Positions 1 through 37,759 of a stretch of DNA of 37,759 nucleotides are shown here, one piece after another. Location: the IMG/VR virus record IMGVR_UViG_3300022540_000168, positions 1-37,759 of that record; one strand, written 5' to 3'. Positions within the stretch are counted from its first letter, which is position 1; each line of letters begins with the position of its first letter. Both the position numbers and the translations under genes were made by a program. This stretch comes from a virus. The notes under the pieces were generated by a model. The model saw only the letters and a list, made by a program, of their open reading frames with translations. It ran no database searches and was not told the DNA's origin.

Positions 1-886
1 ACAGGGGGATTCCCATGCCAACCATATAGTCAAGCAGGCAAAAGAAAGGGCAAAGAAGACGAGAGACATCTCTGGCCAGAAATGCTTAGAGCAATTCGAG
101 AAATTCAACCGAGCTTCGTTGTGGGCGAAAATGTTTATGGACTCGTTAATTGGAACGGGGGGGGTGGTATTCGACGAAGTGCAATCTGACTTGGAAAATG
201 AAGGCTACGAAGTCCAACCGGTTATACTTCCAGCTTGTAGCACGAATGCGCCCCATAGAAGAGATCGAGTCTGGTTTGTTGCAAACTCCAAGCACAATGG
301 AAATATCAGAGAGTCCAGAGCAAATGAGAAAGCGGGCCAAAAAGAACAAATACAAGAATGGAACAAAGTACAACGGATTAAAAAGTCAGTTAGACCACGA
401 CCCGAAATGGAGTCACTTATTACCGACACCGACAACACAGGAAGCGGAAAGCGATTGCGAACTAACGGAGACAGGACGGAGGAAAACGAAGGACGGAAAG
501 GACAGCCACAGCCTGAATTTGGGAAGGATGTCAAAAATGGGGATGTTACCGACACCAAGAGCAGCAGCAAGAGGGAATTGCAGCAACGACAGAAAGAAGG
601 GAAATCTGGAGGACAAAATAGCGGAAATAATGTTGCCAACACCACAGGCAGCGGACGGATTCAAGACAACAAGCAACAGCAACCAAGAGAATTTGAACAT
701 GCTTGCACCGGTTGGGAGCAATTCCCAACTCAATCCCCAATTTGTATCAGAAATGATGGGATTTCCGACAGATTGGACGGAATTACCTTTCCAAAGTGGA
801 GAAGTGAATCTATAAAAGGATATGGCAATGCGATAGTTCCACAGGTAGCATTAGAGATTTTTAAAGCATTAGAACAAACAATATGA
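1..886 (+). CDS. C5-cytosine DNA methyltransferase, C-terminal part, interrupted by a +1 shift in a G tract
   Basis: Continuation of the gene that starts at 37539 and crosses the contig ends. Positions 1-156 encode GGFPCQ (motif IV, catalytic Cys) and [11 protein letters not shown] (motif VI, ENV). At the G8 run 157-164 this frame runs into TGA at 187-189. One G fewer joins it to the frame that is open to 886, which carries [10 protein letters not shown] (motif VIII) and, near the end, [15 protein letters not shown] (motif X). The repaired protein would be about 360 residues, usual for a phage Dcm-type enzyme. The region between motifs VIII and X, where target recognition normally lies, is polar and repetitive with DTDNTG/VANTTG-like blocks. 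GC is about 49% at 481-660 against 22% at 1081-1140, so it may be imported. It probably methylates cytosine to protect phage DNA from host restriction. Enzyme family certain; expression state depends on the G tract. Confidence 0.9.
2..23. repeat. Terminal direct repeat, left copy
   Basis: Bases 2-23 are identical to 37738-37759 (22 bp). The base before differs: A at position 1, G at 37737. The repeat lies in the methyltransferase PCQ motif, and the reading frame is continuous across the joined ends. This fits assembly overlap of a circular or terminally redundant genome rather than a biological repeat within a linear molecule. Confidence 0.85.
150..815 (+). CDS. Alternative-frame ORF overprinted on the methyltransferase (LPTP-repeat protein)
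   Basis: A 221-codon frame opens just after a TAA at 147-149 (a TTG at 150 is the first possible start) and lies entirely within the methyltransferase. It has internal order: four spaced blocks LLQTPST, LLPTPTT, MLPTPRA and MLPTPQA (starting near 276, 417, 543 and 630), and a C-terminal block [21 protein letters not shown]-like in content, split here as [12 protein letters not shown] and DWTELPF. Each LPTP block lies over a (T/A)DT- or VAN-type block of the canonical frame. It could be reached as a fusion to the methyltransferase N-terminus if the G tract were 6 or 9 long. From memory, LPTP-rich proteins of this kind recur in phage and metagenomic data, which would argue for real coding; I cannot check that here. 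It may instead be a compositional shadow. Confidence 0.45.
157..164 (+). repeat. G8 homopolymer tract inside the methyltransferase gene
   Basis: Eight consecutive G between the codons for VNWN and VVFDEV. With 7 G (or 10, 4) the upstream methyltransferase frame enters the canonical C-terminal frame ending at 886. With 6 or 9 G it enters the alternative frame ending at 815. With 8 G it stops at 189. Such tracts vary by slipped-strand mispairing in phase-variable genes, and they are also a common site of sequencing error. The sequence alone cannot separate these explanations. Confidence 0.85.
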
Positions 887-37296: not shown

Positions 37297-37542
37297 ATGA
37301 AACTTGGCGAAATAGTATATTGCAACCTCCATTTATCCACAATAAAAGATAAAAGGAAACCAAAAAAACCTATTGAAAAGGTAATCATAAAAGAAGTGGT
37401 TTTTGCTTATCCTTATTCTGGAGCAATTAAAGTTCTAAAAGAGGGGCATACATTATTACAAAGAAATAGGATAAAAGTAGACATGAACATTGATCGAGTG
37501 GAAATAATAAAGAGATTGGGATTTAAAAACAAAGGACAATGA
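37297..37542 (+). CDS. Small basic hypothetical protein
   Basis: 81 residues, basic, beta-like start (MKLGEIVYCNLHLSTIKDKR), IKEVVFAYPYSGAIKVLKEG in the middle. Its stop overlaps the methyltransferase start (ATGA at 37539-37542), placing it in one operon with the methyltransferases. No family recognised. Confidence 0.65.
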   Translation: MKLGEIVYCNLHLSTIKDKRKPKKPIEKVIIKEVVFAYPYSGAIKVLKEGHTLLQRNRIKVDMNIDRVEIIKRLGFKNKGQ

Positions 37543-37759
37543 GGCACGGATCGTTATTTTCTGGAATAGGTGGTTTTGATTTAGCAGCTCAATGGATGGG
37601 TTGGTCTAATGAGTTTCATTGTGAATGGAATGATTTTGGACAAAAGATTTTAAAGTATTATTGGCCTAAAGCAATAAGTTATGAAGACATCACAAAAACA
37701 GATTTCACTATTTGGCGAGGAAAAATTGACATTCTCGCAGGGGGATTCCCATGCCAACC
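37539..37759 (+). CDS. C5-cytosine DNA methyltransferase, N-terminal part (runs off the window end)
   Basis: 73 codons from ATG 37539 to the window end. SLFSGIGGFDLAAQWMGW (residues 5-22) is motif I, the AdoMet site. WNDFGQKIL is in the place of motif II/III, and DILAGGFPCQ (residues 64-73) is motif IV with the catalytic Cys72. The frame continues directly at window position 22 if the ends are joined, which supports circularity. At window position 1 the codon is ACA (Thr) where this end has GCA (Ala). The rest of the enzyme is described at 1-886. Confidence 0.95.
   Translation, partial: MRHGSLFSGIGGFDLAAQWMGWSNEFHCEWNDFGQKILKYYWPKAISYEDITKTDFTIWRGKIDILAGGFPCQ
37738..37759. repeat. Terminal direct repeat, right copy
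   Basis: Identical to bases 2-23 over 22 bp; see the left copy. The base before (G at 37737) differs from position 1 (A). Most simply an assembly overlap of a circular map. Confidence 0.85.

Follow-up and report, generated by a model that had tools for sequence, protein, structure and literature searches.

Bacillus phages SPR, phi3T, and rho11 encode multispecific C5 methyltransferases, which have arrays of ~40-residue modules between motifs VIII and IX. These enzymes are single chains from a single frame, and they are not known to have LPTP anchors. Other C5 methyltransferases consist of two polypeptides. Of these, M.EcoHK31I is the closest described enzyme to ours, and Lee, Kam and Shaw reportedly found in 1995 that the gene for its small chain lies inside the gene for its large chain, in another frame. 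In both M.EcoHK31I and M.EaeI, the large chain has motifs I-VIII and X and the small chain has motif IX (PMC3404938). The target-recognition domain of M.EcoHK31I is predicted to be on the large chain, and this source describes no multi-module array (PMC3404938). In M.AquI, the alpha chain has motifs I-VIII, and the beta chain has the distal recognition region along with motifs IX and X (PMC3404938).

We studied a window of 37,759 nucleotides (positions 1 to 37,759 of viral record IMGVR_UViG_3300022540_000168), which contains a C5-cytosine methyltransferase gene with a second gene nested in its +1 frame. The coding layout is like that of M.EcoHK31I in that motif IX is separate and motifs I-VIII and X are together. 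Unlike M.EcoHK31I, the nested chain has shuffled recognition modules as well as motif IX, and the corresponding stretch of the large chain is unconstrained. M.AquI, in contrast, is not nested, and its motif X is on the beta chain, while in the window, motif X belongs to the host chain. Below, we refer to the methyltransferase frame as the host or catalytic frame (its predicted product is alpha) and to the nested frame as the LPTP frame (its predicted product is beta).

The program-made list of open reading frames with their translations has an ORF of 221 codons at 150-815 on the plus strand, at +1 to the methyltransferase frame, as the original prediction said. Its ordered C-terminal ending of 13 residues is there as well, at 753-791, and the LPTP blocks do lie over a second series of motifs in the host frame (VANS, ITDTD, VTDT, and VANT). 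The claim that 481-660 is unusually GC-rich also holds up: 89 of these 180 bases are G or C, and only 0.3% of the 180-nt segments of the window are as high. (The GC content is 46% at 150-815 and 32.8% for the window.) Four LPTP blocks were claimed, and we do see recurring blocks at 279, 420, 546, and 633, but the block at 279 reads LQTP and only the other three are LPTP. The "canonical frame" at 2-886 turned out to be a chimera: motifs IV-VI are in frame 1 (1-156), and the frame is then shifted by a run of 8 G at 157-164.

A comparison with relatives indicates that this run shifts both frames. If there were 7 G at 157-164, then the catalytic and LPTP frames would both be continuous, and the 8 G in the window break both. 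The frameshifted copy in the window may be a dead gene, or it may reflect slippage or a sequencing error. The G tract after ENV varies in relatives as well: 9 G in L148 and L150 (near 2990) shift the frames, as the window's 8 G do, and 10 G in L017 and L023 are in frame. In L148 and L150, motifs IV-VI read through the tract directly into the LPTP frame. This variation could be due to slippage (that is, phase variation) or to sequencing errors.

The gene also crosses the ends of the contig. Bases 2-23 are identical to 37738-37759, and because the contig ends overlap by these 22 nt, the methyltransferase gene is whole across the junction. (The record is classed as linear, and it is probably a complete, circularly permuted genome, as its ends overlap and a gene spans the junction.) All of the features of the locus are on the plus strand. 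The catalytic ORF begins with the ATG at 37539 (MRHGSLFSGIGG...), includes motif I, continues to 37759, and resumes at base 24. Bases 1-156 in frame 1 run from motif IV (GGFPCQP) to ENV (Pfam DNA_methylase, 3.4e-17), and after the G tract, the ORF continues in frame 2 at 164-886, with two motifs flanking an unconstrained linker (phrog_363, 7.5e-19). The nested ORF begins with the ATG at 37681, which is conserved in relatives, continues to 37759, and resumes at base 24 in frame 2. Bases 1-156, read in frame 2, encode the N-terminal part of beta; after the G tract, the ORF proceeds in frame 3 from 165 to its stop at 815 (phrog_1008 family, 6.9e-18). The four anchored modules, which we predict to be target-recognition modules, are at 279-728. 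Once the junction is closed and the tract is set to 7 G, motifs I, IV (PCQ), VI (ENV), VIII, and X are all in the host frame. Motif IX has its place between the recognition region and motif X, but it is in the nested frame (729-791). The +1 ORF is then 290 codons long, whereas 5,000 trials of synonymous shuffling in the catalytic frame gave 102 codons on average and at most 254 (p = 0.0002).

We also note two neighbors of the locus. At 883-1236, there is a 117-residue fragment of an N6-type methyltransferase, which matches positions 210-320 of 458 of phrog_799, ends early after YLVPTNKVFQRQIIPN, and looks truncated. At 1900-2421, near the methyltransferase genes, there is a gene like those of NUMOD4/HNH-type homing endonucleases, with an AP2-like stretch.

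Profile searches with each frame separately, which the original prediction had proposed, gave different families: the catalytic frame is a C5 methyltransferase (Pfam DNA_methylase and phrog_363), and the LPTP frame belongs to phrog_1008. In scans of viral contigs, the LPTP frame had 297 relatives and the catalytic frame had 499, and both frames were recognizable in every phage locus that we examined. Among annotated phages, the LPTP frame is at +1 to a methyltransferase in phages of Paenibacillus, Bacteroides, Synechococcus, Acinetobacter, Salmonella, Stenotrophomonas, Lacticaseibacillus, Rhodobacter, Mycobacterium, and Arthrobacter. For example, gp50 of Paenibacillus phage Diva belongs to the same family as the nested frame and is annotated as "g49 internal gene." A scan of bacterial genomes with a profile of the LPTP modules and motif IX gave 75 loci. 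Of these, 50 have a nested LPTP frame at +1 with motif X in the catalytic frame, and 10 have a catalytic ORF that stops early. Another 11, all from Actinomycetota, encode a single protein in which EWMMGxPxGW and motif X share the frame of the catalytic motifs, in most cases with LPTP modules lying between these motifs. (The pattern that we used did not find a catalytic motif in the remaining 4 of the 75.) Wherever the motifs are out of frame, in phages or bacteria of the Bacteroidota, Bacillota, Pseudomonadota, and Actinomycetota, in cyanophages, and in others, the offset is always +1. We looked for standalone LPTP proteins that are free of overlap, and each example that we checked turned out to lie at +1 over a catalytic frame or to be the continuation of one.

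Selection acts on both frames. In 123 of 124 distinct loci, the +1 frame has no stops from motif IV to its own terminator, versus about 757 (400 + 257 + 100) expected from synonymous shuffles of the catalytic frame. The host frame has no stops in the same stretch either, versus about 1,358 (471 + 754 + 133) expected from shuffles of the LPTP frame; because an open catalytic frame was a condition of entry, which excluded 9 of 165 full-span loci, this zero is valid for the remaining loci. The rates at which relatives differ at catalytic codon positions 1/2/3 are.182/.131/.476 before the overlap,.190/.112/.361 over motifs IV-VIII,.424/.148/.103 in the target-recognition array,.283/.116/.165 at the C-terminal end of the overlap, and.230/.173/.432 after the overlap (where.432 is from few codons). 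A repeat with separate bacterial and other phage loci gave.420/.192/.185 in the array and.168/.159/.484 after it. By these rates, the array evolves as if the LPTP frame were its only coding frame, and the catalytic frame is merely free of stops there. Four-fold sites differ at rates of.60 before,.19 in, and.56 after the C-terminal overlap, so the synonymous sites of the host frame are constrained in the overlap. At the protein level, conservation in the array is.80 for the LPTP frame, versus.51 for the host frame and.53 for the untranslated third frame; the identity of modules by frame is biased, as the clusters were defined on the beta protein, so it is the DNA-based rates that carry the argument. 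The original prediction suggested that the two frames are overprinted and both conserved. These results support an overprinted pair, with both frames open and under selection, but in the specificity array, sequence conservation is in the LPTP frame only. Neither outcome that the original prediction named as contrary to overprinting was seen: homologues lack stops in the second frame, and host-frame synonymous sites are constrained.

The relatives with other layouts imply what the LPTP frame is. Pfam DNA_methylase spans a single-chain actinobacterial protein from end to end, and the AlphaFold model of one such protein (pTM 0.71) matches M.HhaI with a Z score of 21.5. The profile of this protein aligns LSPxxxEWMMGWPxGW with LHPRECARVMGYPDSY of M.HhaI, which is its motif IX, and motif IX of the window's beta frame aligns to the same residues. 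(Aligned separately, motif IX scores 2.3 bits against M.HhaI, which is weak when taken alone.) Comparisons of the nested and single-chain profiles gave probabilities of 94.0% and 97.7%. Furthermore, in actinophages LHTSCC (gp81/gp80), SchoolBus (gp6/gp5), and Jamun (gp39/gp40), the first ORF stops just past motif VIII, and the LPTP ORF has modules, motif IX, and motif X. This split form matches the layout of M.AquI. Given these single-chain and actinophage relatives, we conclude from sequence that the LPTP frame is the predicted target-recognition array plus motif IX and that the host frame supplies motifs I-VIII and X. In other words, rather than a novel protein with no link to the methyltransferase, the second frame is recognizably one half of that enzyme. 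For beta alone, the AlphaFold model was poor (pLDDT 61, pTM 0.29), and Foldseek with that model found no fold; when profiles of the nested proteins were searched against PDB sequences, nothing useful came up. The module stretch is disordered in the single-chain model as well.

We think it very probable that the locus encodes a two-polypeptide C5-cytosine DNA methyltransferase, with its subunits in overlapping frames and its targets set by modules. The nesting, the selection on two frames, the separate start with its ribosome-binding signal, the homology to the recognition region and motif IX of single-chain enzymes, and the shuffling of modules are all evident in the sequences. From these, we propose that the host frame yields alpha, with motifs I-VIII and X and an unconstrained linker between VIII and X, and that the nested +1 frame, from its own start, yields beta, an array of ~40-residue LPTP modules that ends in motif IX. 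Alpha and beta would assemble into one methyltransferase, and the pair would methylate DNA at sites chosen by the modules, with one target for each. Phages would exchange modules, probably to escape different host restriction enzymes.

One alternative is that the LPTP frame follows passively from the codon usage of an otherwise ordinary methyltransferase gene, so that its relatives are mispredicted antiphase ORFs. It is true that adjacent conserved motifs can force similarity in an overlapping frame, that families such as phrog_1008 may be labeled by transfer only, and that neither Pfam nor NCBIfam has a family for the LPTP protein. Nevertheless, the stop counts, the codon-position rates, the four-fold sites, the start codon, and the Shine-Dalgarno sites (below) are all contrary to this idea. 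The frame that looks passive within the array is the host frame, and actinophages keep the LPTP frame as the sole frame, with motif X. This explanation has almost no chance of being right, and we consider it already refuted by the position-specific rates: the LPTP frame at 150-815 is a real gene, nested at +1 within that of a C5-cytosine methyltransferase. Given that beta is a real nested protein, it might still do something other than serve as a methyltransferase subunit, such as counter-defense against host restriction enzymes. An inhibitor of many restriction enzymes could also have shuffled modules, no fold can be assigned confidently to beta alone, and relatives of its N-terminal part are known only within the family. 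But the same modules and motif IX occur in the same order inside single-chain C5 methyltransferases, and in actinophages, motif X is on beta, so we view a separate role for beta as very unlikely.

Another explanation is one long enzyme instead of two chains, with the LPTP array fused to motifs I-VIII through programmed ribosomal frameshifting. The actinophage ORFs overlap only partly, as frameshift pairs do; single-chain versions exist; and some genes have poly-G tracts just past motif VI, including the 9-G tracts of L148 and L150. However, under frameshifting, the nested frame would not need to stay open over motifs IV-VIII or to have an ATG and a Shine-Dalgarno site of its own, and the host frame would not need to stay open across the array, yet all of these are kept. 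The nested ATG is retained in 95 of 119 loci, versus 46.9 +/- 4.9 expected, and it arises from several different pairs of catalytic-frame codons. In Firmicutes genomes and phages, Shine-Dalgarno sites are present at 13 of 15 first nested starts, versus 36 of 334 later in-frame starts (p = 1.5e-10). Bacteroidota-type genes often lack a Shine-Dalgarno site, and none is evident at the nested ATG of the window. Also, the nested form would require a second shift to reach motif X. The kept ATG and Shine-Dalgarno site favor independent initiation over frameshifting. Frameshifting is possible for the partly overlapping actinophage form, but it leaves the nested form unexplained, and overall, we think it unlikely.

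If beta is the recognition subunit, then its modules should determine which sites are methylated. Most nested proteins have 1-6 modules, with a median length of 39 residues. Single-linkage clustering of the modules was dropped, as it chained through the LPTP anchor; instead, we used a stricter clustering with the anchor removed. This gave 42 module families that are in at least 3 loci, and 38 of the 42 are found at more than one position in the array. There are 147 distinct arrays among 159 loci. So the modules form an interchangeable recognition array, as in the multispecific phage C5 methyltransferases. Fifteen families are shared by several of the phage, bacterial +1, split, and single-chain sets, and for one of them, the copy in Microbacterium L186 is at +1 and the copy in L190 is in frame. 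Four single-chain actinobacterial proteins (L187, L189, L193, and L196) have ADT/TDA-type stretches that resemble out-of-frame modules. These stretches adjoin the in-frame LPTP modules or take their place, as though the single-chain enzyme had arisen from a nested gene by a frameshift. A further reading is that there is a mobile library of ~40-residue DNA-recognition modules, common to phages and to bacterial phyla and stored out of frame in the catalytic gene of their own enzyme. Each module would specify one methylation target, a phage would rewrite its methylation pattern by swapping modules of the nested frame, and the host frame would need only to be free of stops. We would give this reading an even chance of being correct.

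We also came across a related clade with a stop codon inside motif IV. In these 25 viral contigs (L264-L288, four of which are also L010, L092, L100, and L101), the motif is encoded by GGNTTYCCN-TAACTN-TGYCARCC, with an in-frame TAA and a CTN codon exactly between the proline and the catalytic cysteine (GGFP*LCQP). Downstream of the TAA, the catalytic frame is open, through motif X in 22 of the 25 contigs, and the constraint in the catalytic phase is kept (.197/.152/.458) at DNA identities down to 56%. Possible explanations include readthrough, bypass, or another kind of recoding. We did not find a suppressor tRNA in 17 contigs of this clade.

We did not find a paper that describes this overlap of methyltransferase frames (coverage of the literature was incomplete). 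What is apparently new is how widespread the arrangement is, along with its three related layouts, the modular array in a nested frame that is shuffled among phages and phyla, and a host frame that stays open in the array without being constrained. Long gene overlaps in which half of an enzyme is encoded out of frame within the gene for that enzyme have been rarities; in the large methyltransferase family described here, which has phage and bacterial members, this is the general arrangement. The nested arrangement is why databases contain LPTP-type proteins that lie antiphase to methyltransferases or that are themselves named methyltransferases. For example, phrog_1008 is called "DNA methyltransferase"; it is the family of the nested frame, it is listed without a defined role, and the catalytic motifs are absent from the nested protein. 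Our results suggest that, for such genes, a specificity predicted from the annotated frame would come from the wrong protein. The nested frames would instead offer a library of recognition modules whose targets could be read by methylome sequencing.
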